Shown: positions 12,699 to 31,770 of the stretch, piece by piece
How positions within the stretch are numbered: the first letter of the stretch is position 1
Layout: each line of letters opens with the position of its first letter
From: Erysipelotrichaceae bacterium NK3D112
GTDB lineage: Bacteria > Bacillota_I > Bacilli_A > Erysipelotrichales > Erysipelotrichaceae
Length of the DNA stretch: 32,528 nt
NCBI GenBank assembly: GCA_000701725.1
Contig: JNJQ01000024.1
Coordinates: forward strand, 1 to 32,528
Direction: 5' to 3'
Made by a program: the position numbers and the translations under genes
The notes under the pieces: generated by a model
Databases searched by the model: none
The model's input: only the letters and a program-made list of their open reading frames with translations
Told to the model about the DNA's origin: nothing

Positions 12699-12727
12699 TT
12701 GAAAGATTTGTTGGTGAATGATAATAT
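12699..12727 (+). promoter_or_regulatory. Promoter of the 33-residue peptide gene
   Basis: TTGAAA (12699-12704), a 17-base spacer and TAATAT (12722-12727) make a good housekeeping promoter. The expected start near 12734 gives a leader of about 29 bases that includes the GGAGGAG ribosome site at 12750-12756. Confidence 0.65.
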
Positions 12728-12762
12728 TTTCTTGTTTAAAGATTTAAGTGGAGGAGACAGAA

Positions 12763-12864
12763 ATGAAGGAAGTTTACAACGCGCCTGAACTTGAACTGGT
12801 CGTATTAAATGGTGAAGATATCGTAACGAGCAGCAATTGCCCGAACGAAACAGAAATTCTGTAA
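12763..12864 (+). CDS. 33-residue RiPP-like precursor peptide (cassette 1)
   Basis: A very short gene with strong expression signals: a GGAGGAG ribosome site six bases before ATG, its own promoter and its own terminator. The peptide starts MKEVYNAPELELVVLN and ends SSNCPNETEIL, with one Cys just before the P-N-E-T-E-I-L tail. The Y-x-x-P-x-L-x-L start and P-[NG]-E-T-E end are shared with the 54-residue peptide at 30509-30673. The plan fits a recognition leader followed by a short acidic core. It sits immediately ahead of an HprK-like enzyme and convergent with a radical SAM/SPASM enzyme, the usual company of modified peptides. I do not recognise a named RiPP class. That it is expressed is well supported; that it is modified is inference. 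Confidence 0.75.
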   Translation: MKEVYNAPELELVVLNGEDIVTSSNCPNETEIL

Positions 12865-12866
12865 AA

Positions 12867-12899
12867 AAAAACAGGCGGGGTGAAAATCCCGCCGTTTTT
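12867..12899 (+). terminator. Terminator between peptide 1 and the membrane protein gene
   Basis: GGCGGG (12874-12879) pairs with CCCGCC (12888-12893). The A-rich side before it and GTTTTT after it extend the stem with one bulge, so it could work in both directions. It starts three bases after the peptide stop codon. The peptide transcript should mostly stop here, with downstream genes expressed by read-through or a separate promoter. Confidence 0.85.
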
Positions 12900-12912
12900 A
12901 TGGAGCATAGAT

Positions 12913-13338
12913 ATGAGTGATAAACTGAAACAAAATCCTTTATTGAAAATCTTATCGATCTGTCTTGCAGTTGCAGTTGCATTCGCAGCCGGTTTTTTCG
13001 GCACAAAACTTCTTGATCCGAGCGGTTCATCAAAGAAAGATGAAGTGCCCGGTGAAACGGAAATCCTGATTGATGAAAATCCGATCATCGTGGATGAGCT
13101 GCCTGATCTGAATACAGATGATCCCGAAGGCGAAACTTCTGAAAGCGACGGGGAGTCTTCTGAGGAAACGGATCAGTCTTCACAGTCCGCTGAAGAGAGC
13201 GGTGAAGCATCTGCGGAAGAAACAGATCCGGAAACATCATCCGAGGAATCCTCATCCGAAGCATCTGCCGAGGAAGGCAGTGAACCGGTTGTTACCGACT
13301 CACCGCTTGGTCCCAACGAAACAGAAATTCTCCCTTAA
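12913..13338 (+). CDS. Single-pass membrane protein with acidic Ser/Glu tail ending in the peptide motif
   Basis: 141 residues from ATG 12913, which has GGAG eight bases upstream; an earlier in-frame GTG at 12880 falls inside the terminator and is rejected. A short basic start (MSDKLKQNPLLK) is followed by one membrane helix at about residues 12 to 31, predicted N-in and C-out. The rest is an extended tail rich in Ser, Glu and Asp. The motif seen in peptide 1 appears twice: VPGETEIL just outside the membrane and GPNETEILP at the very C-terminus. The last copy shares 17 identical bases, AACGAAACAGAAATTCT, with the peptide gene. It may be a membrane-tethered substrate or docking partner of the same enzymes. 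No known family is recognised. Confidence 0.72.
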   Translation: MSDKLKQNPLLKILSICLAVAVAFAAGFFGTKLLDPSGSSKKDEVPGETEILIDENPIIVDELPDLNTDDPEGETSESDGESSEETDQSSQSAEESGEASAEETDPETSSEESSSEASAEEGSEPVVTDSPLGPNETEILP

Positions 13339-13347
13339 TAATTCATT

Positions 13348-14091
13348 ATGGTTACATTTCAGATCAGAATTGCGGAAATCACGGTCGGAGTCACGGCTTT
13401 CTATAACAATACTATGCTCAGAAGCAGAGGCTATCTCTGTGAAAATGAGGAAGAGTCTTTTCATGTTACCGTCGATGAGCAGGACATGGAAAAAGAAAAG
13501 CAGATCTTCATGGAAAGAGCGCTGGCAAGAGGGGAAACGGATTATAAGGTTTTCGGATTCCATCTGGACAGGAATGCCGTATACAGAAAGATTGCGGAAA
13601 AGATGATTGATTATGACCGCATTCTGATCCATGGCTCATCCATTGCAATAGACGGTAAAGGCTTTCTCTTTATTGCGCCAAGCGGTACCGGGAAAAGCAC
13701 ACATACGCGTTTGTGGCGTGAGGCTTTCGGAGAAAGAGTGATCATGATCAATGATGACAAGCCGCTGATTCACGTCAGCGGGAATGAAGCCGTTATTTAC
13801 GGGACACCATGGGACGGCAAACATCACCTGAGCACCAATACAGGAGTTCCCCTGAAAGGTATCTGCCGTATTGTGAGGGCAAAAGAGAATTCCATCCGCA
13901 GGCTTTCATCAGCAGATGGTTTTACAGCTGTATTGGAACAGACATACCGGTCCGTCAGTCCATTGAAATTTGTGCATACAATGGATCTGCTGAAGCAGAT
14001 GCTTCAGGAAATCCCTGTTTTTGAGCTTTCCTGCAACATGGATATAACCGCGGCGTATACCGCATATGAAGCTATGATGAATGATCAATGA
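13348..14091 (+). CDS. HPr-kinase-like ATPase of RiPP type (cassette 1)
   Basis: 247 residues with a Walker A loop, FIAPSGTGKST, at about 108 to 118 and an acidic INDDKPL segment further on, as in HPr kinase C-terminal domains. It lacks the N-terminal domain of true HPr kinase/phosphorylase. Standalone HprK-like proteins of this size occur in RiPP clusters; in the paeninodin lasso pathway one phosphorylates the C-terminal Ser of the precursor. The second copy at 30744-31460 shares DKP, Y-x-[ST]-P-W-x-G-K and ENSIR motifs. ATG lies nine bases after the stop of the membrane protein gene with no clear ribosome site, so translation is probably coupled. Kinase activity on peptide 1 or on the membrane tail is inference. 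Confidence 0.82.
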   Translation: MVTFQIRIAEITVGVTAFYNNTMLRSRGYLCENEEESFHVTVDEQDMEKEKQIFMERALARGETDYKVFGFHLDRNAVYRKIAEKMIDYDRILIHGSSIAIDGKGFLFIAPSGTGKSTHTRLWREAFGERVIMINDDKPLIHVSGNEAVIYGTPWDGKHHLSTNTGVPLKGICRIVRAKENSIRRLSSADGFTAVLEQTYRSVSPLKFVHTMDLLKQMLQEIPVFELSCNMDITAAYTAYEAMMNDQ

Positions 14092-14125
14092 TGATCATGA
14101 ATCAAATGACTGTATGAAGAAACAC

Positions 14126-14152
14126 AGCCGCCTGTATGATTTACGGGCGGCT
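14126..14152. terminator. Shared terminator between convergent hprK-like and radical SAM genes
   Basis: AGCCGCCTGTA (14126-14136) and TACGGGCGGCT (14142-14152) pair over 11 positions, with one T-G wobble, around a five-base loop. It sits 34 bases after the HprK-like stop and 14 bases beyond the radical SAM stop. Tails on either side are short, so strength in each direction is uncertain. Confidence 0.7.
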
Positions 14153-14166
14153 TTCATCGTGAACAT

Positions 14167-15453
14167 TCAGATTTTCTTTTTCAACGTATGAAGAAGTCTG
14201 ATCTTATGGACGGATCTGCAGTCATAGACAAGATCCGGACAGTCCGCAAACTCAGTGCACTCAGGCAGGAAGGGACATGTGCGGCATTTTTCACGCACAA
14301 CCTCAGCATCGCATGATCGTCTGCGGCTGATATCATTCTGTTCCATATTTCCCAGCAGACTTTCCTTATGGCAGTGTTCGCAGCTATAGACAAGTCCATC
14401 CGCGCCGATTGAGACACAGGAAGGATTGGATGCGATACAGTAATATAAGCGGATCGGCTCCATACCGCGTTTTTGAGAAACGGCAAAGCCTTTTTCCTCA
14501 AACAGATCTTCCATTTTCATGCATTCTTCCCAGATTTCATTGCAGCGGGAAGACATTTCGGTAAGAAACAGAGGATGCACATAAACGCCAAGTCCGGATT
14601 TGTCAGGGAAAAGCTGATCAAGGTGTGCGCAGAGAGAGCGGACACTTTCTATATTTTCAAAATCCATATTGATTCGCAGCCTCACCTTGATGCCTGTCTG
14701 TTTCAATAAGGCTATATTTTCAGTCAATTTTCCGAACGGTGAAATACTCTTGTCAAAATAGTTTTTTCTCCGGTTGTATTCCTCTTCATCCCCGTCCAGT
14801 GTGATCTGGACAGTTTTTAAATTCCAGAGATTCACTGCTTCGCTGACGATGGATTCATTGAAAAGGAAGCCGTTGGTCACCATGAATGATCTGAATGAAA
14901 CATTGTTTTCTTTTAATGCTGAACAAACCTGATTGATCACTTGTTTTCCAAGCAGCGGTTCTCCGCCAAACCATCTGAGAAGGATTTCGTCTTCCTGGTG
15001 TGTATTCAGGATAAACTGAATCAGCTGATCTGTTTTATCCTGATCCATGGCTGTGAAATGATAGTCCAGTTCATAACAATAGAAACATCTTGCATTGCAG
15101 TAGGTGGTCGGCAGAATAGTATATGTGCTGTATCCGTTCTCCTGTTTCATCATTCTGAGCAATGAGATCACACTGCAGTATGTCCGGTATTCGTCGATGT
15201 CTTCACGGACAAAGAAATGATGTGAGATCAGATATTTCAGTTCATCATTCATCTGATTCTGAGTATTGATGGCTTCCGGACAGGAACCGTCCAGTTCAAT
15301 CAGTTCACGGCTCATCGTATGAAAAAGAAAAACCTTCTGATCATATTCAAACGTCAATGCATATACGGATTTTTTCATATTGATCTGATCAGCAGGGATA
15401 TCCTGCTGAATCAGCTTTAATATCCGGCTGTCAGGCTGTGAGATCATTTTCAT
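14167..15453 (-). CDS. Radical SAM/SPASM peptide maturase
   Basis: 428 residues on the minus strand. Cys residues of the radical SAM cluster are seen in TYCNARCFYCYE (C119, C123 and C126). A WFGGEPLL motif and a VTNGFLF strand follow, typical of this fold. The C-terminal third has the many Cys of a SPASM domain (YYC, SCEHC, CRTCPFLPEC, FADC, YDC), which bind auxiliary iron-sulfur clusters. Enzymes of this plan make thioether, C-C or other cross-links in RiPP precursors, or act as sulfatase maturases. The 118 residues before the cluster may hold a peptide-recognition domain. I chose ATG 15453, with GGAG ten bases upstream, because a likely -10 box at 15475-15480 lies downstream of the longer start at 15492. 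Convergence with the peptide cassette points to peptide 1 as substrate; this is inference. Confidence 0.87.
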   Translation of the reverse strand: MKMISQPDSRILKLIQQDIPADQINMKKSVYALTFEYDQKVFLFHTMSRELIELDGSCPEAINTQNQMNDELKYLISHHFFVREDIDEYRTYCSVISLLRMMKQENGYSTYTILPTTYCNARCFYCYELDYHFTAMDQDKTDQLIQFILNTHQEDEILLRWFGGEPLLGKQVINQVCSALKENNVSFRSFMVTNGFLFNESIVSEAVNLWNLKTVQITLDGDEEEYNRRKNYFDKSISPFGKLTENIALLKQTGIKVRLRINMDFENIESVRSLCAHLDQLFPDKSGLGVYVHPLFLTEMSSRCNEIWEECMKMEDLFEEKGFAVSQKRGMEPIRLYYCIASNPSCVSIGADGLVYSCEHCHKESLLGNMEQNDISRRRSCDAEVVREKCRTCPFLPECTEFADCPDLVYDCRSVHKIRLLHTLKKKI

Positions 15454-15474
15454 ATTTTCGTTTCTCCGGTTTCT

Positions 15475-15480
15475 ATTATG
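15475..15480 (-). promoter_or_regulatory. Possible extended -10 box for the radical SAM gene
   Basis: On the minus strand TGTCATAAT reads as an extended -10 element (TGn plus CATAAT). The predicted start near 15468 leaves a short leader containing GGAG before ATG 15453. No good -35 box is seen. Confidence 0.35.
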
Positions 15481-15525
15481 ACATATTTTCATCTTTCGCG
15501 TACAAGGCGCCGTGATCCGGTGGTT

Positions 15526-15554: not shown

Positions 15555-15584
15555 GTGAAAATATCTACGAAAGGAATTTACAGA

Positions 15585-18452
15585 ATGAGAAAAACAATTT
15601 TAATCAGAATCATCTCAATGGCAGCGGCATTCTTTTTATGTATCGGCTTTATTCCGGTATATGCATCGGAGGAGGCGACAGTATCAGTAAGAAGACGTTT
15701 TGGAAACGATCTGATCATTGGTGAAACCAAACAGCTGGAAGTCATCAAAAAGAATTTTCAGGAGGACGATATCATTCATTGGAGAAGTTCGAATGAAGTT
15801 GTTTGCACGGTTGATGAAAACGGCGTTGTGACAGCACTTTCACGCGGATCTTCCACGGTTTATGCGAGTCTGGATAACGGCAGCGAGACATATTTATATG
15901 TCTTTGTCTATAATGAGCCGGAAGCTATTGCTTTTACGGATGAGGACTATCTGGCAATCGCCGGACAGAGAGTCACGACGCTTTCAGCCAAAGTCACAAA
16001 CGGAGTTCTCGACGAGCGAATTGTCTACACGGTTGAGGATCCGGAAATCGCAACGACCGAAGGGGACTTTCTGATCGGACTGAAAGCAGGGAAAACACGT
16101 GTGAAAGCAGAGATTCCCGGCTATGAAGCACATGCATATGCGGATGTGGAAATTCTGGAAGGGGATTATGCGGAATATATAAATTATGTAGGGGGACCTG
16201 ATAAAACAACGGTGGCAGGTTTGGATCTTCAGCTGGAATATACACTCGGGTCTTCTGAAGACTATTCAAAAACTGAATTCGATGATGAACATGTCATCTG
16301 GACGATGGACTCGGATGCCCCGGATATCGGAACAATATCTGATGAAGGCATATTCCATGCGGTATCAACTGGACAGACAAATGTATATGCGACAATCACA
16401 AACAGACAAAGACTCAGCTATCATATTTATGTAATTACACCTGTTGAGTCCATCGAGTTTGACGAAACAAATCTGTACTCACTGAATACAGGTACGGACA
16501 TCAATCTGCTTTCCTATATTAAATACGGTCCGCAAGAGGCAGGTACTCAGGATCTTGAGTATGCTTCGAGTGATGAAACAGTTCTTACGGTAAATGATTC
16601 TGGAACTGCCAAGGCGGTCGGTCCGGGGACTGCGGTTGTGACTGTGTCAGCCCGGTCAAATCCGGAAGTCTCTGCTTCACATGAATTCAAAGTATTTGAT
16701 TATGTTGCACCTGCAGGAATCAAACCGGTTTCGGATCCGGATCAGGTTTATTATCTGAACTACACATATGTGCCTCTTCAGATTGAGTATGAACCTGCCG
16801 AAGGAAATCCGAAAACAAACTGGCAGACTTCCAACGTGCATATTCTGAATGTCAGCGGCTCAGAAACTTATGGTTACGTATCAACCGTATCAGCAGGGAC
16901 AGCTTATGTTACAGCCGGCAGTGCAATCAATTCACTGATCAGTACACGCTTCAATATAACGGTCAAAGAGGGAGATCCTGAACCGGGCACATATGATACT
17001 GTGCTGACTATCGGAAAATACGAAGACGGCGCATATACACCGAAGGATCCGCAGGTGAATCCGGATGTCTATACGCTGGAAAAAGGTGAGGACTACATGC
17101 TTGTCTATCGCTTTGACAGTGATGTCTGCATACCGGATATTTCAAAGCTCGGCGATTTCTTCGCGGATTCCCAGAGCATTCATCTGGTCAGAATGCTGGG
17201 CTTTTCGAACAATAGTACCAATGATCATCTGTCAACGCAGGTTTCATTGCTGATCCATGTTGATGACGCATGTGAAGAAACATTTAAAATCGGCAGCCGG
17301 GAAATCACATTCATTGCAGAGGGAGATCCGGGGGATGTCGCCAAACTGGAAATCATCTCACCCGGACAGATCATGGAATTTGAGGAGACTCTCCAGCTGA
17401 CAGCTTTGACAAAGCCTGAAAACAGCAAGGTGGAATGGAGCTCCTCAAACCCGAGTATTATTGAAGTTGACGAAAACGGTTTATGCACCGCGAAGCACAG
17501 ATTCGGCACTGTCAAAATCACCGCGAAGGCAGGTAAAAAATCAGCGGCTGTAAATATCAGTGTCAAATCACCGGTACAGATCCATGGCAGGAGTCTTTCA
17601 CTTGAAGGAAAGATCGGGGTGAACTTTTATCTTTATGCGGACTTAGACAAAAATGAGGATATCGATATTATTCTTTCCATGGGAGATGATATCAGAAGAA
17701 CCAGATATACAGACGGCCTGCCTGGCACCACTTCACCAAGGACAAAGAAATTCTCATTTGATGTGTCAGCGAAACAGATGCATGACAGCATCCTGATCAA
17801 CGCGGAAAGAAGTGACGGATCTGTCAAAGTGATTCAGGATCCGGAGGGAAACTATTATCACAGCGGATGCAGTTACACGGTCAATGATTATCTTCAGCAG
17901 GCATTCAAAACAGGTTCCGATCAGCTGAAACTTCTGGCCGGGGCAATGATCACATATGGTAAATATGCACAGCAGTATTTCGATTACAATGTGGACGAAT
18001 ATGTGAAGGATGTTCATGATCTTTCCTATATCACAGCAGAAACATTAGCTGAATATGCTGCAAAACAGAGCGGAAGTGTCGGTGGCTTGACTTATGCCGG
18101 TGCGTCACTTGAGCTGGAAAGCGATACCGGATTCAGATTGTATTTCAGCCTTGCTGAGGGCCATGATATCAAAGATTACACATTCAGCCTTGGCGAAGAG
18201 AAAATAGACGTAAGCCGCAAAGCAGGCGGCAATCTGTATTATGTAACGATCGATGGCATCGCCGCCCAGGATCTGGACAAAATGAAGACGATTACAGTCA
18301 CTGCCGGTACGGATGCCCTGAATATTCAGTATTGCCCGCTTTCTTATGCATATACGGCTTTGTCATCTGAAAAAGCAGGTGATCCGATCAAAAACGTATG
18401 CCGTGCATTGTATATCTACAATCAGCAGTCAAAGGCATATTTCAACAATTGA
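15585..18452 (+). CDS. Secreted Ig-like (Big_2) repeat protein with KIGINFY domain
   Basis: 955 residues. ATG 15585 has AAAGGAA nine bases upstream and starts a good signal peptide (MRKTILIRIISMAAAFFLC, cleaved near YASEE). About five bacterial Ig-like repeats follow, recognised by W-x-S-S-x-x-x-V and G-x-x-x-V-x-A patterns, for example HWRSSNEVVCTVDENGVVTA and EWSSSNPSIIEVDENGLCTA. A segment at about residues 465 to 585 does not look like the repeats and is not recognised. From about 663 the KIGINFY domain runs to the end (SLSLEGKIGVNFYL, then the divergent forms SAKQMHD and TYGKYAQQYF). No catalytic motif is visible, so it is probably an adhesive or structural surface protein. Confidence 0.85.
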   Translation: MRKTILIRIISMAAAFFLCIGFIPVYASEEATVSVRRRFGNDLIIGETKQLEVIKKNFQEDDIIHWRSSNEVVCTVDENGVVTALSRGSSTVYASLDNGSETYLYVFVYNEPEAIAFTDEDYLAIAGQRVTTLSAKVTNGVLDERIVYTVEDPEIATTEGDFLIGLKAGKTRVKAEIPGYEAHAYADVEILEGDYAEYINYVGGPDKTTVAGLDLQLEYTLGSSEDYSKTEFDDEHVIWTMDSDAPDIGTISDEGIFHAVSTGQTNVYATITNRQRLSYHIYVITPVESIEFDETNLYSLNTGTDINLLSYIKYGPQEAGTQDLEYASSDETVLTVNDSGTAKAVGPGTAVVTVSARSNPEVSASHEFKVFDYVAPAGIKPVSDPDQVYYLNYTYVPLQIEYEPAEGNPKTNWQTSNVHILNVSGSETYGYVSTVSAGTAYVTAGSAINSLISTRFNITVKEGDPEPGTYDTVLTIGKYEDGAYTPKDPQVNPDVYTLEKGEDYMLVYRFDSDVCIPDISKLGDFFADSQSIHLVRMLGFSNNSTNDHLSTQVSLLIHVDDACEETFKIGSREITFIAEGDPGDVAKLEIISPGQIMEFEETLQLTALTKPENSKVEWSSSNPSIIEVDENGLCTAKHRFGTVKITAKAGKKSAAVNISVKSPVQIHGRSLSLEGKIGVNFYLYADLDKNEDIDIILSMGDDIRRTRYTDGLPGTTSPRTKKFSFDVSAKQMHDSILINAERSDGSVKVIQDPEGNYYHSGCSYTVNDYLQQAFKTGSDQLKLLAGAMITYGKYAQQYFDYNVDEYVKDVHDLSYITAETLAEYAAKQSGSVGGLTYAGASLELESDTGFRLYFSLAEGHDIKDYTFSLGEEKIDVSRKAGGNLYYVTIDGIAAQDLDKMKTITVTAGTDALNIQYCPLSYAYTALSSEKAGDPIKNVCRALYIYNQQSKAYFNN

Positions 18453-19138: not shown

Positions 19139-21562
19139 TTATTTCGTATTGAAATACTCAATCGCCTGCTGATTGTAGAGATACATCGCTCTGCACATGT
19201 TCTGTAACGGGATCTTGTCTTCCGCTGTCAGTTCAAGTGCTCTGTATGCATACGACAATGCGCAATACTGAATTCCGAATGTATTTGTTCCGTCTGTTAC
19301 TTCAATCTTATTCTTAACACCAAGATCTTTCGCTGCGATATCTGTCTTCTCAATGTAATACTGGCTTCCCGATTTAACCGGTGTAACTACCTTTCCATCC
19401 ATCTTGAATGTGTAATCGCTGATCTGATGTGACGTATCAATCTTGAAGTACAGTCTGTATCCGATCGCATCGTCAAGCATCGTGGTTCCGCCTACATATG
19501 TAAGTCCTGCAACCGGATTCTCTGTCTGTACCACCTGATATGGTGCAAGTGTCTCCAGTGTTACAGCACTGACATCGGTTAAATCAGTTACTTCATCTGT
19601 ATTGTAATTGAAATAGATCTGTGCATACTTGCCATAGTTGTTCAGTACTCTCGCAAGCTTCTTTGTTCTTTCCTGTCCGGCTGTTTCAGCTTTTGCGAAA
19701 TAATCAGATGCTGAGAACGGATAGCCTTCCGTATAGTCTGTTTCATCTTTGGTCAGTTTTACTTTGTCACCTGACTTGTTTTCCACTGTGAGAGTTACTT
19801 TATCTCTCATCTCTTTGGCAGCTACAGGATATACAAACATTCTTAACTTCTGTCCTAATACTGTGCTTGCTAAGCCTTCGGATGCGGGGACTCTGACATC
19901 TTCCTTCTCACCCATCTGCATGACCACAGTCAGATCATTGAGATCTTCCTCTGCAATATTCAGATAGAAGTTGATTCCGATCTTGCCTTCCAGTGCCAGG
20001 GAGGAGCCGTAGATGCTGATAGGTTTTTTCTCAACAGTCACTTCACATGTTGCGGTAAGACCGTTCACAGTTGAAGCAGTAATGGTAGCCGTACCTGCGC
20101 CAACCGCAGTTACAGTACCATTGTCCACAGTGACAACGGAATTATCACTGGTAGACCATGTGACAGTCTTATCATCGGCATTGTCAGGTGTGACGGTTGC
20201 GGTGATTGCAGCTGTTTCGCCAGCTGTGAGATTGAGTGAGGTGGGATTTACAGTAATGCCGGCTGCGGGAATACTTCTCTTTACAACATTGACTTCGACT
20301 TCGGCGCTCAGACCGTTGGCAGATGTCAGTGTGATTGTTCCGCTGCCTTCCGCAAGACCGGTAACTTCAACCGTATTTCTGGCTTCGCCGAATGCTGCTT
20401 CAAAGCTTGCCGGGGAACTGTTATAGGATGAATGCATGGAACTGACATAATCAGTGCTTGATGCAGGTACAAAGCTCGCGGTGATTGTGGCTGTTTCGCC
20501 AACACCGACTTCCAGGGAAGAAGGACTGACCGACATGGACTCATCTTCATAGAGCTGGAAGAAGTTGACGGTATAGGAGATTTCACCGTTAACACAGTTG
20601 AAGATTGTAATATCGTAGCTGTCGCCGGGTGCGTATGTCACATTCTCCGGTCTCCAGATGATGGCACCGGAAGTTCCGTATACATCGTTGTCGATATTGA
20701 AATAACCGGATGTGCTTGTGGCGGAATATTTGGTGGCGACTTTTGTCTTGTTGTTTGTCATGACAACATATACTGTGGAAATGTCTTCGGCTCTGCCTGT
20801 GGATACAGACCACGGATATTCTGTACCGAAGAATTCAACCGGTGTATTCTGAGCCGGCCATACATTGGATGTTTTCTTGTTAGAGCCGCTGGTATCATAT
20901 GCATACATTCCGGAATAAGCGCCGACTGCGCCGAAACCGGTCTTTCCCATCGCTGCGTTCAGAAGCCATCTTCTGTGACCGATGACATCGATGTTGGAAG
21001 CGTCGCCGTCATTCAGCCATCCGGCTGTGACCGCACCTGCAAGGGTGGGAATATTCCATGCGATGTTGGCTGAGCTGCATCCTCTGTATCCGAGCTGATA
21101 GAGCCCGTCATCAATGCCGGCAGGTTTTTCAGGGAAATGGGACAGCTCATCGTTGATGGCATTCAGCAATGCGCCTGCCTGGACCATTTCTTTGCAGGAA
21201 TCATCCAGTTTCACCTGATAATCAAGGCCTGCGATATAACGGATGGTATTGACTGCCTTCAGCGCGTCATTCTGCACTTCATCAGTTAATTTACCAGCCG
21301 CATACGGGGCTGTTGTATAATCGGGTGCTTCCGCATAGGCGTTGGCAAGATACTGCGGACCATTGTCAGCGACATACTTTTTGATATCTTCGATGGAATG
21401 GTAATCAACGGTAATACCGACGGCATCTGTGATTTCATCTTCGATAATCAGGCCATCGGGATCAGCACCTTCAGCGGGAGTGGCATCCTTTGCGTTTACC
21501 GCAAGCGGGCTGCCAAGGGTCAGGACTCCGCACAATGCGGCAATCAGACTTCTTTTCAACAT
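19139..21562 (-). CDS. Secreted CAP-domain protein with Ig-like and KIGINFY domains
   Basis: 807 residues on the minus strand. ATG 21562 follows AAAGGAGG and gives a signal peptide (MLKRSLIAALCGVLTLGSPL). Residues of about 95 to 235 form a CAP/SCP-type domain: a VNTIRYIAGL helix, LSHFPEKP, and GHRRWLLN near 196 to 203. Bacterial CAP proteins are secreted and often surface-bound; their biochemical role is generally unclear. Two Ig-like repeats follow, the second a clear Big_2 (TVTWSTSDNSVVTVDNG). The KIGINFY domain runs from about 514 to the end and nearly copies the lipase gene in its last 118 or so residues, which points to recent duplication or gene conversion. It converges on the Ig-repeat gene and diverges from the penicillin-binding protein gene. 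Confidence 0.87.
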   Translation of the reverse strand: MLKRSLIAALCGVLTLGSPLAVNAKDATPAEGADPDGLIIEDEITDAVGITVDYHSIEDIKKYVADNGPQYLANAYAEAPDYTTAPYAAGKLTDEVQNDALKAVNTIRYIAGLDYQVKLDDSCKEMVQAGALLNAINDELSHFPEKPAGIDDGLYQLGYRGCSSANIAWNIPTLAGAVTAGWLNDGDASNIDVIGHRRWLLNAAMGKTGFGAVGAYSGMYAYDTSGSNKKTSNVWPAQNTPVEFFGTEYPWSVSTGRAEDISTVYVVMTNNKTKVATKYSATSTSGYFNIDNDVYGTSGAIIWRPENVTYAPGDSYDITIFNCVNGEISYTVNFFQLYEDESMSVSPSSLEVGVGETATITASFVPASSTDYVSSMHSSYNSSPASFEAAFGEARNTVEVTGLAEGSGTITLTSANGLSAEVEVNVVKRSIPAAGITVNPTSLNLTAGETAAITATVTPDNADDKTVTWSTSDNSVVTVDNGTVTAVGAGTATITASTVNGLTATCEVTVEKKPISIYGSSLALEGKIGINFYLNIAEEDLNDLTVVMQMGEKEDVRVPASEGLASTVLGQKLRMFVYPVAAKEMRDKVTLTVENKSGDKVKLTKDETDYTEGYPFSASDYFAKAETAGQERTKKLARVLNNYGKYAQIYFNYNTDEVTDLTDVSAVTLETLAPYQVVQTENPVAGLTYVGGTTMLDDAIGYRLYFKIDTSHQISDYTFKMDGKVVTPVKSGSQYYIEKTDIAAKDLGVKNKIEVTDGTNTFGIQYCALSYAYRALELTAEDKIPLQNMCRAMYLYNQQAIEYFNTK
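19145..20020 (-). repeat. Long inverted repeat, copy 2 (KIGINFY domain DNA of the CAP gene)
   Basis: This is the partner of copy 1 at 6874-7748 in opposite orientation, nearly identical in its 3' half and clearly homologous in the rest. Recombination between the two would invert the roughly 11.4 kb between them. Confidence 0.8.
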
Positions 21563-21606
21563 GTTCAACCTCCTTTTTATGGATTCCTCATAATAATGCA
21601 ATTACA

Positions 21607-21634
21607 GTATTATTTTTTCACAGTTCGATGTCAA
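21607..21634 (-). promoter_or_regulatory. Promoter of the CAP-domain gene
   Basis: On the minus strand a perfect TTGACA (21634-21629), 16 bases, then TAATAC (21612-21607). Transcription would start near 21600 and give a leader of about 38 bases before ATG 21562. It is one of the best promoters in the window. Confidence 0.7.
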
Positions 21635-21712
21635 ATGAAATGGCAAATGCTCATACATATTAATAAAAATTCAGTTTTATCTGCGCCATTTCAGCTTAAT
21701 TTAGTAGAATAT

Positions 21713-24214: not shown

Positions 24215-24241
24215 AATTAAGAACTGAAAAAGTATACATAG

Positions 24242-24271
24242 TTGCAAACCCGCATCAAAAAGCTTTAAATA
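24242..24271 (+). promoter_or_regulatory. Possible promoter of the LCP gene
   Basis: TTGCAA (24242-24247), 18 bases, then TAAATA (24266-24271). The -10 is weak, and the gene may also be read through from the penicillin-binding protein gene, since no terminator is seen between them. Confidence 0.3.
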
Positions 24272-24296
24272 GATATGTTGAAGCGAGGTATGAACG

Positions 24297-25832
24297 ATGG
24301 CAAAAAAGAAGAGAAGAAGCAGATTTTCAAGGATCCGATGGGGATCGATGACATGGCTTGTGCTCCTGGTGTTTGTCATCGTTTTTGCATTCCTTCTTCT
24401 GAAATTCCCGATTATTCCGAATAAATGGAAATTTATAGTGCTTGGTGCAGTGGCTGTTATTACGGCCCTTCTCGGTTATTTCTCATTCCGCAATTTCAAG
24501 GATTTTTACAGTAAAAAGCCCGTTGTTTCGGCATTGAATATACTCTTATCCATTGTTCTGCTGATCTGTTCCATCATCCTTCCGACGGTGGAAAGCGGTA
24601 TCCGCAGGGTATTCGATGATGTGCCGGAAACAGTGAGCACCAAGATCAATGTCTATGCGATGACAACCGACTATAAATCCGCACACAGTGATCTTTTCCG
24701 CAGCCGCGGATTGATTACGGATGCGAGCTTGAACAATTATGCCAACAAGCAGTTTATCACTCAGACATCCGTGGATCAGGAAAACCAGGCGTTTGCCCTG
24801 GAAAAGCTGCAGATGATGTACAATTCCAAAAGCCTCTGGATCAATGAACAGGATACGGTATGGAATGCAGTTAATGCCTTATATACAGCGGAAGGCGATG
24901 CGCTGATACTCAATGAAGCGTATGTAGATCTGCTTACTGATACAGAAGAATACAGCAATTTCAAGGAAGATACGATCGTTCTATATTCTTTCACAAGGGA
25001 AGGGGAGAGTTCTTCCTCCAAATCCGAAGCAGATCTGACACAGCCGTTCAATATTTATATTGCAGGTTCTGATTCAAGAGAAGAAGGACTTACTACTGTT
25101 ACCAGAACAGACGTCAATATCATTGCCACGGTCAATCCGGAAAAGAAGACAGTAATACTGACTTCCTTCCCGCGAGACTCTTATATAGCCAATCCGGCTC
25201 TTGGCAACGGTCTGGACAAGCTTACCCATATGGGTGTATACGGAATTGACAATTCGCTGGCAGCTCTCAGCAGTTACATGAATGCGCCGCTGGACAATTA
25301 TGTATTGGTCAATTTCTACACATATAAAACGATTATCAATGCAATCGGAGGAGTGGATATAGACAATCCGTATGAATTCTCTGCCGGCTCATATACTTTC
25401 GAGGCAACCAGAATTCATCTGGATGGTGATTCGGCACTTGCGTATGTCAGAGAGAGAAAGAGCCTCCAGGGCGGTGACTTCAACCGTAATGAGCATCAGG
25501 TAATCGTATTGAGGGCAATCCTGAAAAAGATGCTCAGTCCGGAAAACATCGTAAATCTGAATAATGTACTGGACGCATTAAGCGGTACATTCATGACAAA
25601 TCTGTCATCAGATTCCATCTTCAAACTGGTAAGCGAGCAGATCGACAGACCCGGAAACTGGAATATCATTTCCTATCATGTGACCGGCACAACCGGCAGT
25701 GAAGTCACCGCTTCAATGCCCGGACAGCTGCTTTCGGTGGTCTATCCGGACACCGCCCAGATGGAATTCGCGGTGGATCAGATGAACAGACTGCTCGCAA
25801 ATGAAGACATATATCAGGAAAAACTACCCTGA
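24297..25832 (+). CDS. LytR-CpsA-Psr (LCP) family cell-wall ligase
   Basis: 511 residues with three predicted membrane helices in the first 110 (a basic KKKRRSRFSR start, then LVLLVFVIVFAFLLL and two more). The LCP domain lies at about residues 250 to 420: YIAGSDSR, TRTDVNIIATVNP, SFPRDSYI, DKLTHMGVYG, GGVDIDNP and YVRERKSLQGGDFNRNEHQ. The conserved Arg and Asp residues that hold the lipid pyrophosphate are present. LCP enzymes move wall teichoic acid or capsule polymers from lipid carriers to peptidoglycan on the outer face of the membrane. The insert between the helices and the catalytic domain is a known accessory arrangement. Its place after a penicillin-binding protein fits a cell-wall role; the polymer is unknown. 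Confidence 0.93.
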   Translation: MAKKKRRSRFSRIRWGSMTWLVLLVFVIVFAFLLLKFPIIPNKWKFIVLGAVAVITALLGYFSFRNFKDFYSKKPVVSALNILLSIVLLICSIILPTVESGIRRVFDDVPETVSTKINVYAMTTDYKSAHSDLFRSRGLITDASLNNYANKQFITQTSVDQENQAFALEKLQMMYNSKSLWINEQDTVWNAVNALYTAEGDALILNEAYVDLLTDTEEYSNFKEDTIVLYSFTREGESSSSKSEADLTQPFNIYIAGSDSREEGLTTVTRTDVNIIATVNPEKKTVILTSFPRDSYIANPALGNGLDKLTHMGVYGIDNSLAALSSYMNAPLDNYVLVNFYTYKTIINAIGGVDIDNPYEFSAGSYTFEATRIHLDGDSALAYVRERKSLQGGDFNRNEHQVIVLRAILKKMLSPENIVNLNNVLDALSGTFMTNLSSDSIFKLVSEQIDRPGNWNIISYHVTGTTGSEVTASMPGQLLSVVYPDTAQMEFAVDQMNRLLANEDIYQEKLP

Positions 25833-26020: not shown

Positions 26021-29000
26021 ATGAAAGAAAACAAATTCCTGAAATCTCTGCTGGCATCGTTACTGGCATTCACTGCCGTAGCTTCGTCAGCAACCCCTGT
26101 ATTCGCTGAGGATACAGCGGCAGAACCGGAAGAAGCTGTTTTGGAAGAGGCGCCTGCAGAAGCAGAGGAACTTCCTGCTGAGGAAGTTGCTGAAGAGCTT
26201 CCTGTAGAGGGAGTTGAAGAAGAACTCCCTGCAGAGGAAGTTACTGTTGAAGAAGAAGCCGTCGAAGAAACTGTCTCCTTCTACCAAGAAATTGAAGATG
26301 TTACTGTTTCAGCAGAAGCAGCAGCAAACGTTTTCCCGGACGGCACTGTCATGACAGTTAAAAAAGTAGATGACGAGGCTACTTTGGAGCTGGCAGCACA
26401 GGCGGTTGGCGAAAATGCGACAACAAAAGTCGCTGTCGATATCACATTCATTTGCGGAAATGATGAAATTCAGCCTAATGGAGAGGTTCGTGTTACGATC
26501 AGTTCTCCTGAAATCGCTGAACTCGACAATCCTGTGCTTGTTCACGTAGATGACAAGCAGGAAGAAGTGACACCTGAAGTTGTTGAGCAGATTAAAGAAC
26601 CGACACCTGCAGAGGAAGTCACAGCTGATCTGGAATCATTCTCTGTTTATGCGGTTGTCGAAGATGGCGGTACCGGAGATGATGCGCGTCTCAAGGTAAA
26701 TTTTGTTCAGACGGATGGAACTACAACTATCCTGGTAAAGAAAACTGATGATAAAAAAGAAACGATTGACGGTGTAGAGGTTGATCATTTTGAAGAAGTT
26801 CTTTACGATCCAGGCGCTGGTGCTCTGACCGGAAGACAGATGTTCAAAGGATGGACAACTGAAGAAAACTATACGGATGAAACAACTGCTAAAACAATCG
26901 CGGATGTTCGAAATGAAGTTAAAGCGCAGCTGTATGATGGTGTTACTGAAGGTGAATCAGTAACATATTATGCAATGATTTTTGATGTTTATAGCTTAAT
27001 GCTTCTTGATGAAGATGGTGCTGTGCTGAGATCTGAATCTGTCATCGTAAAGAGCGGATCATCCAAATCTTATACTGTCAATCAGTTTTATGATCCGAAG
27101 GATCCGGATTCAAGATTTGAAGGCTGGGCTGAAGCCACTCAGGATGCAGACGGAAAATGGGTGATCAGTGATAATCCTGATCCTTTATATCCGAACGGAA
27201 CCGAGTTTACTTTTGGCGCCGGCGGACTCAACAAAGATCTTGTTTTAAAGGCATATGTTCCTGCAGGAAAATGGCTGATCTTTAAAGAAAATGGTGAAGG
27301 TGCAAGTTATACTGCTCCTCAATTCTATCGTGGACAGGTAACACAGGAGCCGACTCCCGCTCCTACACGTTTTGGTTATGAATTTGGCGGTTGGTATCTG
27401 GATGAGGGATGCACTGAAAAATTTGTATTTGGCAATGTTCTTGAGAAAACCACACGTGTATATGCTAAATGGAATGCTAATACAAAAGCAAATTATACAG
27501 TAGTCATCTGGACCGAGAACCTGGCGGGTGATGGTTATGATTATAAAGAAGTTGTTACAGTTAGGGATGCAAATGTTGGTGCTAATACAAATGTAACCGG
27601 AAATGCAGATGATGTGCAGGTGAGTATTAACGGCACTCGTAAGTCGTATACCGGATTCCATCTTAAAGCGGCTCCCGAAAATAAAACAGTTACACCGGAA
27701 GGTACTGCAGTAGTAAATGTATATTTTGACCGCACAGAGTATACCTTTACATTCCAGACTCAAAATGGAACTACAATTCATACTGTAACAAGAAAGTATG
27801 ATACTGATATTACGGATATTTGGAATTTCACTGGCTCAAATGGGGTAACTTATCCGCGATCAGACACTTCTTGGACTCCGCATGGTTCTGACACATATAC
27901 TGCTCGTATTACAGTGATGCAGAGAATGCCGGCAGAAAACATTAGGTGGACTCATACAAGTTCTGATAATACAAAGCGCTATTTCCATTATATGCGTGAA
28001 GTACCTGACGGAGAAACTGGCACAAAGACATATGCTGGACGTCAATTTGACGAATGGAAAGTTTTCGAAAATGACTTTAATATTGTGTTCTACAATGATG
28101 ACTTCTGGGTACTAAAAGGATTTGAGAGACTTGCAATTACTAAGAGTAATGACGAGGCAGTTAGTTTGACTGCAGGCAATTCAATCAGATGGACTGCCTT
28201 AAATAGCAATTATGGTGGTACCGATAATCATCTTTACTTCTATTACACGAGAATGCAGTACCCGATCAACTACATGGATGGAAAATATGTTGATGGGTAT
28301 GGTGTAGAGTTGGATGAAGCAAATCGAGGCCAGCTCCATGAAAGTGCAAAGATTGATTACGATGCAGATATTTCATCATATGGCAAAGGCGGAGCTAACT
28401 ATTATGCTGCGGCAGATAAAACTCCTCAGGGATACACATTCGGTGGATGGTATATCGATCAGCCTTGCACAGTGCCGTATGACTTTACAAGGATGCCGAT
28501 TGATGGTTTGACTGTATATGCAAAATGGATCAAGAATCAGTATCGTGTGTTCCTCCATCCAAATGTTCCGACTGATGAGGCATATGAATATGGTGATCAG
28601 GAGACATCGTTCAGAATCGATTATGATGAAGAAATCAGCAAAATCCAGTACTACAGAGATGAATATACATTAAGCGGTTGGTATAGAGATCCTGATTTTA
28701 CACAGTCATTTAACTTCGATGCGTTTGCAGCGAATGATAACACAGTGTATGAAGCATATGACCAGACAGAATCTACAGAGAGAAATGAATATGGTGTAGA
28801 AACTTCGAGCGAAAACAAAGATGCTAAAAATAATCGTTTCTGGATTAAGACAAAGCTTGATCTGTATGCAAAGTGGCGTTATAAGCTTGTAGGCGCAGAC
28901 GGAATTAATGTAGTATATGATGCTGTAGAAGGAAAAGGTACTTTTGCTGGAGGCGAAGTTGAACATACTGATCCGTTAGTCTACCAGGATGCTTCCACAG

Positions 29001-30484
29001 CATCTGCTCAGACTGCTTCTGTAGCAACAAGCGCAAATGAAGAATTCAAGTATTGGGTATTATATAGTTGGAATGGAACTGAATTTGTTCCTACCGAGCA
29101 GACAGTTTTACCTGGCCAGACATTTGTTGTATATGCAAAGGATGCTCACAAGACTGAGAATTCTGATCACACAGAAGATGATCCCAGCTATACATACACA
29201 ATCAAGCTTGTTGCTGAATACGGTTCTATTGAAGCTCCGGCTGATACTCATATTAATTGGTACTCCAATGTTAAAGACATTTTAGGCAATACGATGGATT
29301 TGGATAAATTCCATAAGACCACTGATAAATCTGAAGCTGATAAAGGCTGGTATGTCACTAATGATCCTATTGAAATCAATAAAGGTTATAACATCATGCC
29401 TGCCGATACATACAGCTATGATGATTATGCATTCCTTGGATGGGCTAAGCTTGAAGAACATGAAAAGGCAAGTGATAAAGTCTTCACTGAAGCAGATCTG
29501 TTCTTAAAGTGGGTACCTGCATCAGGCGATAAAGCCGCTCATTTTGAAACTCAGGATGGACGTACTGTAACTCAGGTTGCCGCTGATGAGAATCATCCTT
29601 ATGAAGATCTCTATGCAGTTTGGTACAAGCCTGAAACAATTAGAATTAATCATTCATCAAATAGAGCAGAAACCAACGATAACGTCTTAGTCTATGTGTC
29701 CGACACATTAAGTGATACAACTGCTGCGATCGCTCAGAACTTTGCAACAACTAAAGGCTATGAATTTATTGGAAAAACTGACAAGATCGATATGACTGAG
29801 TATGTTTCTGACGGTTATTTCTATGGTGGCTATTATAAGCATAATAACAATACTGGAAACTATACAGGAGATCCTAATTATTGGGTCGAAGATGATGCTT
29901 GGACAAATAACGGTCTCGAAGTTGATCCTGATGTATTAATGAATGATCAGAATTTGACAGATAAGACGTATTATCTGAAAGAAGTACCTGTTGATTATCT
30001 TGTACCGAAGACTCAGTACGTATATAACAAGTATCGTGGTAATGTTGTAACAAAACTTCTGGCTCTTACAGCGATTGATGACGGTAACTACAACGCGATC
30101 GAAGCTGTTGATATTGATGGTAACGTTGTTGACGTACACATTGCCAATAAATATACAGTTAAGGGTGAAGCTTCAAAAGACTTTACTGCACAGTCTCTGA
30201 TCAGTAAAGATGGTTATGTGGTTGTATGGAATGCTAAGGAAACAAAACCGCAGAGCGGTGTCGCATTTGGAGATTATTCTGGTACAAGTGCAATCAAAGC
30301 CAATCAGACAATGACACAGGTATTAAGACTTATTACACTTGACAATGTCGTTGTTGAGAGAGCTACACGTGTAGTTACAACTGGTAACAACTCAATCGGC
30401 TTTGCTACACCTGGTGATTTGAAGAGTACAACAACCAATAAAACAACAATTACGTATTCAGCATATGACAATTCTGGAGAATAA
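26021..30484 (+). CDS. Large secreted InlB B-repeat surface protein without visible anchor
   Basis: 1487 residues. A signal peptide (MKENKFLKSLLASLLAFTAV, cleaved near FAED) is followed by acidic tandem repeats of the EELPAEEV type up to about residue 90. Several InlB B-repeat (Listeria-Bacteroides) units follow, each with a GW core and a YAKW end, for example FGGWYLDEGC near 454, FGGWYIDQPC near 805 and LSGWYRDPDF near 883, with less regular units at about 272, 364 and 1135. Such repeats usually occur in adhesins. The protein stops at TTITYSAYDNSGE with no LPXTG, membrane helix or KIGINFY domain, so it is either released or the end has been lost. Its codons look more A/T-rich than its neighbours. 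The peptide gene at 30509 begins 25 bases later in the same transcript. Confidence 0.85.
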   Translation: MKENKFLKSLLASLLAFTAVASSATPVFAEDTAAEPEEAVLEEAPAEAEELPAEEVAEELPVEGVEEELPAEEVTVEEEAVEETVSFYQEIEDVTVSAEAAANVFPDGTVMTVKKVDDEATLELAAQAVGENATTKVAVDITFICGNDEIQPNGEVRVTISSPEIAELDNPVLVHVDDKQEEVTPEVVEQIKEPTPAEEVTADLESFSVYAVVEDGGTGDDARLKVNFVQTDGTTTILVKKTDDKKETIDGVEVDHFEEVLYDPGAGALTGRQMFKGWTTEENYTDETTAKTIADVRNEVKAQLYDGVTEGESVTYYAMIFDVYSLMLLDEDGAVLRSESVIVKSGSSKSYTVNQFYDPKDPDSRFEGWAEATQDADGKWVISDNPDPLYPNGTEFTFGAGGLNKDLVLKAYVPAGKWLIFKENGEGASYTAPQFYRGQVTQEPTPAPTRFGYEFGGWYLDEGCTEKFVFGNVLEKTTRVYAKWNANTKANYTVVIWTENLAGDGYDYKEVVTVRDANVGANTNVTGNADDVQVSINGTRKSYTGFHLKAAPENKTVTPEGTAVVNVYFDRTEYTFTFQTQNGTTIHTVTRKYDTDITDIWNFTGSNGVTYPRSDTSWTPHGSDTYTARITVMQRMPAENIRWTHTSSDNTKRYFHYMREVPDGETGTKTYAGRQFDEWKVFENDFNIVFYNDDFWVLKGFERLAITKSNDEAVSLTAGNSIRWTALNSNYGGTDNHLYFYYTRMQYPINYMDGKYVDGYGVELDEANRGQLHESAKIDYDADISSYGKGGANYYAAADKTPQGYTFGGWYIDQPCTVPYDFTRMPIDGLTVYAKWIKNQYRVFLHPNVPTDEAYEYGDQETSFRIDYDEEISKIQYYRDEYTLSGWYRDPDFTQSFNFDAFAANDNTVYEAYDQTESTERNEYGVETSSENKDAKNNRFWIKTKLDLYAKWRYKLVGADGINVVYDAVEGKGTFAGGEVEHTDPLVYQDASTASAQTASVATSANEEFKYWVLYSWNGTEFVPTEQTVLPGQTFVVYAKDAHKTENSDHTEDDPSYTYTIKLVAEYGSIEAPADTHINWYSNVKDILGNTMDLDKFHKTTDKSEADKGWYVTNDPIEINKGYNIMPADTYSYDDYAFLGWAKLEEHEKASDKVFTEADLFLKWVPASGDKAAHFETQDGRTVTQVAADENHPYEDLYAVWYKPETIRINHSSNRAETNDNVLVYVSDTLSDTTAAIAQNFATTKGYEFIGKTDKIDMTEYVSDGYFYGGYYKHNNNTGNYTGDPNYWVEDDAWTNNGLEVDPDVLMNDQNLTDKTYYLKEVPVDYLVPKTQYVYNKYRGNVVTKLLALTAIDDGNYNAIEAVDIDGNVVDVHIANKYTVKGEASKDFTAQSLISKDGYVVVWNAKETKPQSGVAFGDYSGTSAIKANQTMTQVLRLITLDNVVVERATRVVTTGNNSIGFATPGDLKSTTTNKTTITYSAYDNSGE
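26145..26265 (+). repeat. Imperfect tandem repeats encoding acidic Glu-Leu-Pro units
   Basis: The DNA repeats units resembling GAGGAACTTCCTGCTGAGG, which encode EELPAEEV, EELPVEGV and EELPAEEV variants. Such repeats can change number by slippage and alter the length of the N-terminal stalk. Confidence 0.6.
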
Positions 30485-30508
30485 TTGAATCTCAGGGGGA
30501 TATTATAA

Positions 30509-30673
30509 ATGAATAACACTTCAACAAAATATGAAAAGCCTAAGTTTCTGTTATTCGAATCAAAAAAGTCTATGATTCTGAATAATGTTGACACAGTCAA
30601 TCCGAATCCCGGAGAAACAGAGGATCCTGATCCTACACATACATCCGAGGAATGGGGAGAACTTGACGACTAA
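30509..30673 (+). CDS. 54-residue RiPP-like precursor peptide (cassette 2)
   Basis: A short gene directly after the InlB-repeat gene, with an AGGGGGA ribosome site eight bases before ATG. The peptide starts MNNTSTKYEKPKFLLFES, has NPNPGETEDPDP in the middle and ends SEEWGELDD. The Y-x-x-P-x-[LF]-x-L start and P-G-E-T-E motif match peptide 1 at 12763-12864, and both are followed by a terminator and then an HprK-like gene. It has no Cys, so a Cys thioether cannot form here; this separates its chemistry from peptide 1. The C-terminal half is very acidic. With PqqD-like and kinase-like neighbours, a modified peptide is the best reading, but this is inference. Confidence 0.72.
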   Translation: MNNTSTKYEKPKFLLFESKKSMILNNVDTVNPNPGETEDPDPTHTSEEWGELDD

Positions 30674-30690
30674 AGCTTAGGTGCTATAGG

Positions 30691-30726
30691 GAGAGAATCA
30701 CTTTGATGAGATTCTCTCTCTTTTTT
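30691..30726 (+). terminator. Strong terminator between peptide 2 and its hprK-like gene
   Basis: GAGAGAATC (30691-30699) and GATTCTCTC (30710-30718) form a perfect nine-pair stem on a ten-base loop, followed by TC and six T. It closes the InlB-repeat / peptide transcript. Confidence 0.92.
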
Positions 30727-30727
30727 A

Positions 30728-30736
30728 TGGTATAAA
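30728..30736 (+). promoter_or_regulatory. Extended -10 promoter giving a leaderless mRNA
   Basis: TGGTATAAA is a good extended -10 element. Seven bases beyond it is the ATG at 30744, so the transcript should start at or next to the start codon. No ribosome site can exist upstream. A normal -35 would fall inside the terminator stem. Confidence 0.55.
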
Positions 30737-30743
30737 TTTAGTT

Positions 30744-31460
30744 ATGACAAATATTATGCTGGCAGATGTTAATATTGCTTACGAATTCAGTGTTGAAGAT
30801 ACATCAAAATTTTTCGAAGGATATGCAACTGATTGCAGAGAAGAGGCAGTTGCACTGGAACTTACGGATGTTGAAAAAGACTCGCTTAAACAAAAGGAGT
30901 CCAGGGCGAAAGATTATGAATTCTATTATATTCTGAATCATTTGTCGAATATGTTTCTTCCTATGAAACGCGTATTTTATCATGGTGTGGCATTTTATAT
31001 TAATGATGATGCTTATTTACTTACTGCATCAAGCGGAGTGGGAAAAACAACGCAATACAAAAATATGAAACAGCTGCATCCGGATCATATCCGTATTCTG
31101 AATGGTGACAAACCGATCCTGCATTTTACTGACGAATCTATTCATATGTACGCTTCTCCCTGGATGGGCAAAGAAAGAATGGGCGAATTGGGGGATACTG
31201 AATTAAAAGGAGTGATTATTCTGTCGCAGAATAAAGAGAATTCAATCCGTAAGCTCAACACTGAAGAAGCGATCATACCGCTGATGCAGCATTTCCTGTA
31301 TAATCCTGATACATTGGAAGATATAGGATATGTATGCAAAATGACAGAATGTATACTGAGCAGAGTACCAGTATGGTTTTATGAGAACACAGGTACACCT
31401 GAATCTTCTGAACTGTTATATCAAATGCTTTTAAAACACAGCGGAGGTCGCAATGGATAA
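30744..31460 (+). CDS. HPr-kinase-like ATPase of RiPP type (cassette 2)
   Basis: 238 residues with a Walker A loop, TASSGVGKTT, at about 94 to 103, then LNGDKPIL, YASPWMGK and KENSIRKLN, each with a counterpart in the enzyme at 13348-14091. As there, the N-terminal domain of true HPr kinase is missing and the length fits RiPP-associated members, some of which phosphorylate peptide precursors. The start has no ribosome site and lies directly downstream of an extended -10 box, so translation is probably leaderless. The gene overlaps the PqqD-like gene by eight bases, so the two are made together. The likely substrate is the peptide at 30509-30673, by position only. Confidence 0.8.
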   Translation: MTNIMLADVNIAYEFSVEDTSKFFEGYATDCREEAVALELTDVEKDSLKQKESRAKDYEFYYILNHLSNMFLPMKRVFYHGVAFYINDDAYLLTASSGVGKTTQYKNMKQLHPDHIRILNGDKPILHFTDESIHMYASPWMGKERMGELGDTELKGVIILSQNKENSIRKLNTEEAIIPLMQHFLYNPDTLEDIGYVCKMTECILSRVPVWFYENTGTPESSELLYQMLLKHSGGRNG

Positions 31461-31770
31461 TTACATTATCAGAGAAGGAGTCATGCTCACAAGCATTCTT
31501 GATCAGTACATACTTGTCTCTGTTAAAGCATGCAGGGACAAATGTCCATATGTAAAAATGGTGAATGAAACCGCAGCATATTTCTGGAAAATGATTGAAA
31601 AGGGTTGTTCTATCGAAGAAATGACAGAAAATGCCTGTAATCAATATGGTGTAACTGATATGGATGAAATGCGCAATGACATCCATGAATATATATTGTC
31701 TTTACAAAATGCAGGTTATTTGCTCTCTGAAGATGAAGTTTCAGCTATGGAATTACAGACTCAAATATAA
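31453..31770 (+). CDS. PqqD-like peptide-binding protein
   Basis: 105 residues starting in an eight-base overlap with the HprK-like gene, with GGAGG upstream of ATG. The N-terminus (REGVMLTSILDQYILVSVKA) would form the beta strands, and MVNETAAYFWKMIEKGCSIEEM the first helices, of a PqqD fold. A winged helix with an E-x-x-x-D-x-x-x-[YF] stretch follows (MDEMRNDIHEYILSLQNAGYL). PqqD-type proteins hold the leader of a RiPP precursor and present it to the modifying enzyme. No radical SAM gene adjoins it, so it may serve the HprK-like partner or the distant radical SAM enzyme at 14167-15453. Confidence 0.82.
   Translation: MDNYIIREGVMLTSILDQYILVSVKACRDKCPYVKMVNETAAYFWKMIEKGCSIEEMTENACNQYGVTDMDEMRNDIHEYILSLQNAGYLLSEDEVSAMELQTQI

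Follow-up and report, generated by a model that had tools for sequence, protein, structure and literature searches.

Two cassettes, each combining a short peptide gene, a terminator-like hairpin and a gene for an HprK-like ATPase, are found on contig JNJQ01000024.1 of Erysipelotrichaceae bacterium NK3D112, presumably a bacterium of the gut or rumen. They raise the question of whether they form one split system, as an earlier reading of the bare DNA (hereafter the sequence-only reading) had suggested, or two separate ones, and what kind of peptide they would produce. The window analyzed here is this entire contig of 32,528 nucleotides (C23 of the source genome, G000), and its right edge at 32528 is the contig end. 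We consider it probable that the window holds two separate cassettes for ribosomally synthesized and post-translationally modified peptides (RiPPs) akin to linear polyphosphorylated peptides (LPPs), with cassette 1 being one part of a system dispersed over the genome; as a whole, this is the best explanation of the data. Both gene sets are predicted to make small phosphorylated peptides.

Homologs of the cassette 1 kinase were gathered within the order and from GTDB genomes, and their gene neighbourhoods were then compared. The nearest relative of this kinase is found in Erysipelotrichaceae bacterium S24M_St_67 (G125), the source of locus L160. The features of the two cassettes are as follows.

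7892..12559, + strand: giant surface protein of the subtilase type, secreted (S8, PA and Fn3 in Pfam), ending in a C-terminal domain (CTD) of about 190 residues (CTD profile)
12763..12864, + strand: precursor peptide 1, MKEVYNAPELELVVLNGEDIVTSSNCPNETEIL, 33 residues (leader profile, 5.5e-12; alignment)
12874..12893, + strand: intrinsic terminator hairpin behind peptide 1 (hairpin and terminator scans)
12913..13338, + strand: single-transmembrane protein with a long acidic linker, 141 residues from the better start (sequence comparison)
13348..14091, + strand: HprK-like kinase 1 (LppK-like), motifs APSGTGKST (P-loop) and NDDKP (alignment; model)
14167..15492 (start possibly 15453), − strand: radical S-adenosylmethionine (SAM)/SPASM peptide maturase, convergent with the kinase 1 gene (PF04055, E 3.2e-12)
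26021..30484, + strand: giant surface protein carrying Listeria-Bacteroides repeats; first gene of cassette 2 (Pfam)
30509..30673, + strand: precursor peptide 2, 54 residues, leader motif YEKPKF, acidic core PGETEDPDP...EEWGELDD (open reading frame; G125 counterpart at the same place)
about 30688..30721, + strand: terminator-like hairpin behind peptide 2, −16.8 kcal/mol (hairpin folding; not listed by the simple scan)
30744..31460, + strand: HprK-like kinase 2, divergent type B (alignment; model and PDB match)
31453..31770, + strand: PqqD-like discrete RiPP recognition element (RRE) (PF05402, E 1.4e-10)
31847..32528, + strand: IS1/IS1595-type insertion sequence (IS) with a palindromic end, directly behind the PqqD gene, running to the contig end

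Cassette 1 and its scattered partner genes

All parts that had been listed for the two cassettes were recovered, with small corrections of coordinates. Pfam makes no HprK call for kinase 1 or kinase 2, and kinase 1 is weakly similar to the HprK-related kinases A and B and ScmC (TIGR04352, TIGR04355 and TIGR04249; E 0.0005–0.03, far below the cut-offs). The AlphaFold models of kinase 1 (predicted local distance difference test score, pLDDT, 93.8) and kinase 2 (pLDDT 88.4) both have Lactobacillus casei HprK/P as their top PDB match (probability 1.00), a fold match that upholds the earlier assignment of both ATPases as HprK-like. The two kinases are 23% identical to each other, and kinase 1 is 58% identical to its G125/L160 counterpart.

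Peptide 1 displays a leader of the RRE-binding YxxPxL type (YNAPEL), Ser24, a core Cys26 and the tail PNETEIL, and its Asp19 and Ser24 are invariant across 16 aligned peptides. An iterated profile located leader peptides in 59 places; they follow the pattern MKExYExPEMEVIEFExEDVITTS, to which a short core is added. A terminator lies 3' of 20 of 44 peptides, compared to 11 of 132 random stretches, and sigma-70 promoters before the peptides showed no clear excess over shuffled sequence. The combination of peptide, terminator and kinase recurs in relatives, with counterparts of both cassettes in G125; this exceeds chance, and the observation made in the sequence-only reading holds.

The genes recurring around kinase 1 homologs, namely HprK, PqqD, an archaeal-type signal peptidase (SpI), an MsbA-like ABC exporter and a nucleotidyltransferase, are the same as those at the core of the LPP class, described in Nat Commun 2026 (published May 2026; PMC13381572). 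In that class the kinase LppK puts several phosphates onto core Ser3 of the precursor LppA, the YxxP leader is the binding site of LppB, and the SipW-like signal peptidase LppS cleaves LppA after this leader (PMC13381572). The lpp cluster of Paenibacillus alginolyticus (PMC13381572) is resembled in its YxxP leader, HprK-like LppK, RRE LppB, SpI LppS, MsbA-like LppD and nucleoside triphosphate (NTP) transferase LppN, as well as in its short variable core and capsule-locus link. Unlike in P. alginolyticus, the cassette 1 genes are spread over three contigs, a radical SAM enzyme and Cys-containing cores are present, a CTD surface protein stands directly upstream, and a membrane anchor bears the tail of the peptide.

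As to membership, the HprK-like kinase of cassette 1 lies near its precursor, a proximity conserved in relatives, and a discrete RRE, an SpI, an MsbA-like exporter and an NTP transferase are found elsewhere in the genome, on contigs C20 and C33. The YxxP-type leader is followed by a conserved Ser, in a register one residue past LppA Ser3 as counted from the Tyr (EDV[IV]xxS here compared to FETxxS in the LPP paper). By these traits, cassette 1 is assigned to the LPP kind. The earlier statement that the system fits no nameable class was fair from the sequence alone, but for cassette 1 it gives way to this match (PMC13381572), whereas the placement among RiPPs is supported, as is the view of the HprK kinase and PqqD as tools of RiPP biosynthesis.

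None of the PqqD, SpI, exporter and nucleotidyltransferase genes lies beside kinase 1, and all are present elsewhere in G000. On C20, in a capsule-type locus, the PqqD gene adjoins the SpI gene (C20:477-905; TIGR02228, E 1.9e-11, under the cut-off of the model), and the two are 78% and 61% identical, respectively, to the genes directly 3' of the kinase 1 homolog in G125/L160. The PqqD profile matches solved lasso and LPP RREs (TbiB1, 1.8e-11; LppB 9x8z, 1.8e-8; PbaB1, 2.6e-6). On C33, among polysaccharide-type genes, the ABC exporter adjoins the nucleotidyltransferase, and the closest matches of both are genes from the LPP clusters of G016 and G044 (identities 45–50% and 40–43%, respectively). 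A second PF14907 nucleotidyltransferase, less like the LPP ones, is located in a glycosyltransferase cluster (L258 9604-10815, G000:C29). In G125 the kinase and the PqqD-SpI pair are on C83, and peptide, anchor and radical SAM enzyme are on C202; this re-assortment of modules is consistent with a single dispersed system.

Phosphorylated lasso peptides of the paeninodin type likewise have an HprK-like kinase, an RRE, an NTP transferase and a [Y/W]xxP leader. In contrast to these, no lasso cyclase or B2 protease was seen in the window or the examined neighbourhoods, in line with the sequence-only reading; the macrolactam cyclase and B2 protease are absent among the open reading frames of the window, and no genome-wide search for them was made.

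Cassette 2 and the idea of a split system

The proposal that both cassettes form one unit, in which the cassette 2 PqqD would serve peptide 1 and the radical SAM enzyme both peptides, draws on their position on one contig, on counterparts located on a single 15-kb contig in G125, on the presence of only two PqqD genes in G000 and on the [Y/W]xxPx[LVIFA] motif common to both peptides. However, the C20 PqqD is the ortholog of the gene behind kinase 1 in G125/L160, type A (cassette 1) and type B (cassette 2) PqqD proteins are about 20% identical, type B loci in relatives have their own PqqD and no radical SAM enzyme, and peptide 2 is free of Cys. A single unit is thus very unlikely: separate PqqD and SpI partners of the cassette 1 kinase are encoded on C20, and cassette 2, with its own PqqD, recurs in the order surface protein, peptide, HprK2 and PqqD.

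In the same-genus relatives G004, G008, G039 and G040, cassette 2 comprises the giant surface protein, the peptide, HprK2, one or two PqqD, a nucleotidyltransferase and a small transmembrane protein or lipoprotein, but no SpI. The G125 form encodes a giant protein, an HprK2 and a PqqD that are 38%, 37% and 38.5% identical, respectively, together with a peptide that has a YKKP motif and an acidic core. As the window comprises the whole contig, cassette 2 is cut off at 32528, and since in some relatives the position of the IS is taken by another PqqD and a nucleotidyltransferase, its operon may be truncated. By this comparison, cassette 2 is a separate, divergent relative of the cassette 1 system, interrupted by an IS. 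In type B peptides at L051 (11003-11260), L052 (10382-10645) and L049 (8292-8537), an SQGTSG motif is conserved; close to the C-terminus they also have a stretch resembling an EF-hand, e.g. DMDTNGNYVITAAEF, which is unusual for a RiPP core.

The radical SAM enzyme, the surface proteins and the membrane anchor

The radical SAM gene lies on the opposite strand, convergent with kinase 1, as would be expected of a chance neighbour. This explanation is extremely improbable, given that homologs of the enzyme (E 2e-53 to 2e-75) stand in or near kinase/PqqD operons at L175, L196, L210, L211, L214, L218, L224, L233 and L239, and a further one before PqqD in G021. A core Cys was present in all nine first-examined radical SAM loci, the window included, compared to 3 of 27 loci without the enzyme (p 2.3e-6). 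The rule held in all seven further LPP-peptide loci (L214, L268–L273) examined after it had been formed, which brings the count to 16/16 loci with radical SAM enzyme and LPP-type peptide versus 3/27 (p 3.7e-9); one extra match of the enzyme family, at L274, has no LPP-type peptide. L268 of G125 is a near-copy of the window order (CTD surface protein, Cys peptide, single-transmembrane anchor and convergent radical SAM gene), with no kinase there. The occurrence in one operon with PqqD or HprK in relatives and the strict pairing with a core Cys support the earlier inclusion of the enzyme, which on these grounds is assigned to the cassette 1 system.

The enzyme resembles ranthipeptide and sactipeptide maturases (PapB; Clo7bot, TIGR04334), its best model matches, in its radical SAM and SPASM Cys motifs and in the Cys-containing precursors at all these loci. 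It differs from them in that scores are far under the curated cut-offs and in that the partners here are a kinase, a discrete RRE and an SpI. PMC9413430 describes PapB-type enzymes as forming Cys-Asp/Glu thioethers, and the stretch CPNETE places the Cys of peptide 1 close to acidic residues. We infer that the core Cys is the target of the enzyme, and peptide 1 is probably altered at this residue besides its predicted phosphorylation. In G215, L270 and L271 are operons of PqqD, radical SAM enzyme, Cys-containing peptide and HprK in which the peptide cores are long; one of them shares its contig with a type B-like cassette that includes an ABC exporter. Related radical SAM enzymes also stand beside short Cys-rich peptides, with no HprK, at L153 and L155 (G074 and G099), which are probably ordinary sactipeptide or ranthipeptide clusters.

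Besides the subtilase-type protein upstream of peptide 1, four further surface proteins of the window end in the same domain of about 190 residues (CTD profile), none of them with a peptide gene behind (adjacency).

722..3781, + strand: CTD surface protein
3964..7752, + strand: CTD surface protein
15555..18452, + strand: CTD surface protein with Big_2 repeats (Pfam)
19139..21601, − strand: CTD surface protein

The CTD has no match in Pfam, NCBIfam or PDB sequences, and its profile finds none in the cassette 2 surface protein (26021..30484). Between the two cassettes (21398-25832) lie penicillin-binding-protein-like and LytR-CpsA-Psr-like genes; LPP clusters are reported close to capsule loci (PMC13381572).

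When a CTD profile built from the five window proteins alone was run on peptide-bearing loci, 26 of 31 CTD proteins proved to be encoded immediately before a leader peptide (p 1e-27), a result that bears out the suspected tie to surface proteins. Such pairs were found in Ruminococcus-, Lachnospiraceae- and Erysipelotrichaceae-type genomes, and the gap from CTD gene to peptide gene is mostly 2–51 bp (203 bp in the window, 124 bp in G125). The small genomes G153 and G183 (L316–L321, L323–L327) hold 8–9 scattered peptide hits each, the weakest marginal, nearly each directly behind its own giant surface protein, mostly at 2–30 bp, with a single full-length PqqD-HprK locus per genome. This linkage suggests what the peptide function may concern. 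With the peptide gene so closely coupled behind the surface gene (usually 2–50 bp), the leader peptides might be tags or chaperone-like factors for the export or folding of the upstream protein, the phosphate being regulatory; this is quite unlikely, as SpI and MsbA-like exporter are standard in the clusters and the published LPP system includes cleavage of LppA by LppS.

The anchor between peptide 1 and kinase 1 contains PGETEIL and ends in GPNETEILP, thereby repeating the last seven residues of peptide 1 (PNETEIL); when its extracellular part was shuffled 20,000 times, no word of more than six residues was shared, and six was reached once. Peptide neighbours are often a lipoprotein or a single-transmembrane protein with a disordered-looking linker, and tail pairs occur elsewhere as ELPFVPA/ELPFVPA (L181), EDELPW[VIL]PA three times (L209), DNExxDP (L044) and VDNEAxD (L046). 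Peptides resembled their own anchors more closely than the anchors assigned by permutation (p <= 1e-5, and 2e-5 once the window and near-duplicates had been left out). C-terminal ELPFVP-type tails in six other genomes are on LPP-type peptides and anchors, the remaining few hits being a polytopic protein or short reading frames. PxETE[IV]L is confined in G000 to cassette 1 plus one internal match elsewhere, and a role of PxETE as a genome-wide sorting tag was rejected on this ground. The shared tail and the common CTD, like the IS and the contig end, had been overlooked in the sequence-only reading.

The tails also bear on the view that the modified peptide is a secreted, bacteriocin-like antagonist or signal, with the same-tail membrane protein as immunity factor or receptor decoy and the surface protein as a merely co-regulated neighbour. 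A tail copy on an anchor could indeed serve as a decoy, and RiPP exporters and patchy spread suit a conflict system (PMC13381572, discussion). We regard this view as rather unlikely, since one peptide per surface protein at such short distances in G153 and G183, together with the near-exclusive pairing with one CTD, argues for the peptide being a structural partner and not a toxin.

A candidate pathway and its meaning

Several observations weigh against our explanation of two separate LPP-like cassettes with a dispersed cassette 1 system. All of it is derived from sequence. G000 is a fragmented metagenome-assembled genome (95 contigs, contamination about 4%), so that linkage by contig could mislead. 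As loci were sampled via kinase homology, from related species and with a fragmented genome, independence is overstated and the p-values are guides. Four of the five exceptions to the CTD-peptide adjacency are the window proteins without their own peptide. Tail similarity was absent at several loci and not significant in six further loci of a narrower clade (p 0.097); it is not universal and was rejected as a universal rule. A fused RRE at the N-terminus of the radical SAM enzyme was not found by hhalign, and that reading of the enzyme was dropped. Cassette 2 has an HprK kinase, an RRE and a YxxP peptide in common with LPPs, but peptide 2 has no Ser near Tyr+18, the conserved position, and no SpI is seen up to the IS and the contig end that follow the PqqD gene; cassette 2 is for these two reasons not filed as LPP.

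Gene content, folds, linkage, the Cys/radical SAM rule, the pairing with surface proteins and, for the window and several loci, the similarity of the tails are what the sequences themselves provide. Building on these, the C20 PqqD-type RRE would bind the leader of peptide 1 via its YxxP motif, and kinase 1 would phosphorylate Ser24, which directly follows the leader, once or several times. We infer that the radical SAM/SPASM enzyme then links or otherwise alters core Cys26, that the archaeal-type signal peptidase encoded on C20 removes the leader, and that the MsbA-like C33 exporter secretes the peptide, possibly after its decoration by the C33 nucleotidyltransferase. Outside the cell, the PNETEIL tails of peptide and anchor may, hypothetically, be alternative ligands of the CTD of the neighbouring protein, a tentative proposal that we hold to be possible but not probable; the system would then set whether the membrane or the capsule is where CTD proteins are held. 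Cassette 2 would be a divergent version with its own RRE, serving a different surface protein.

The paper naming the LPPs gives their biological role as unknown, and its text has no mention of radical SAM, lipoprotein or surface protein (PMC13381572); a literature search of limited scope found no paper joining radical SAM, HprK and precursor peptide. The CTD surface protein before the peptide gene and the anchor with the C-terminal sequence of the peptide are not in the LPP paper. Systems with so dispersed a gene set would escape mining by gene cluster. In the radical SAM branch, phosphate and Cys modification would be combined in one RiPP. The CTD pairing and the tail copy on the anchor give a direct binding test of LPP function, and may, although we remain cautious on this point, indicate a new mode of surface attachment in Bacillota, in which the CTD of about 190 residues on giant secreted proteins is docked by a short tail offered both on a secreted phosphorylated RiPP, in some lineages also Cys-modified, and on a membrane anchor, the modified RiPP acting as a mobile ligand that would compete with or cap the tether.

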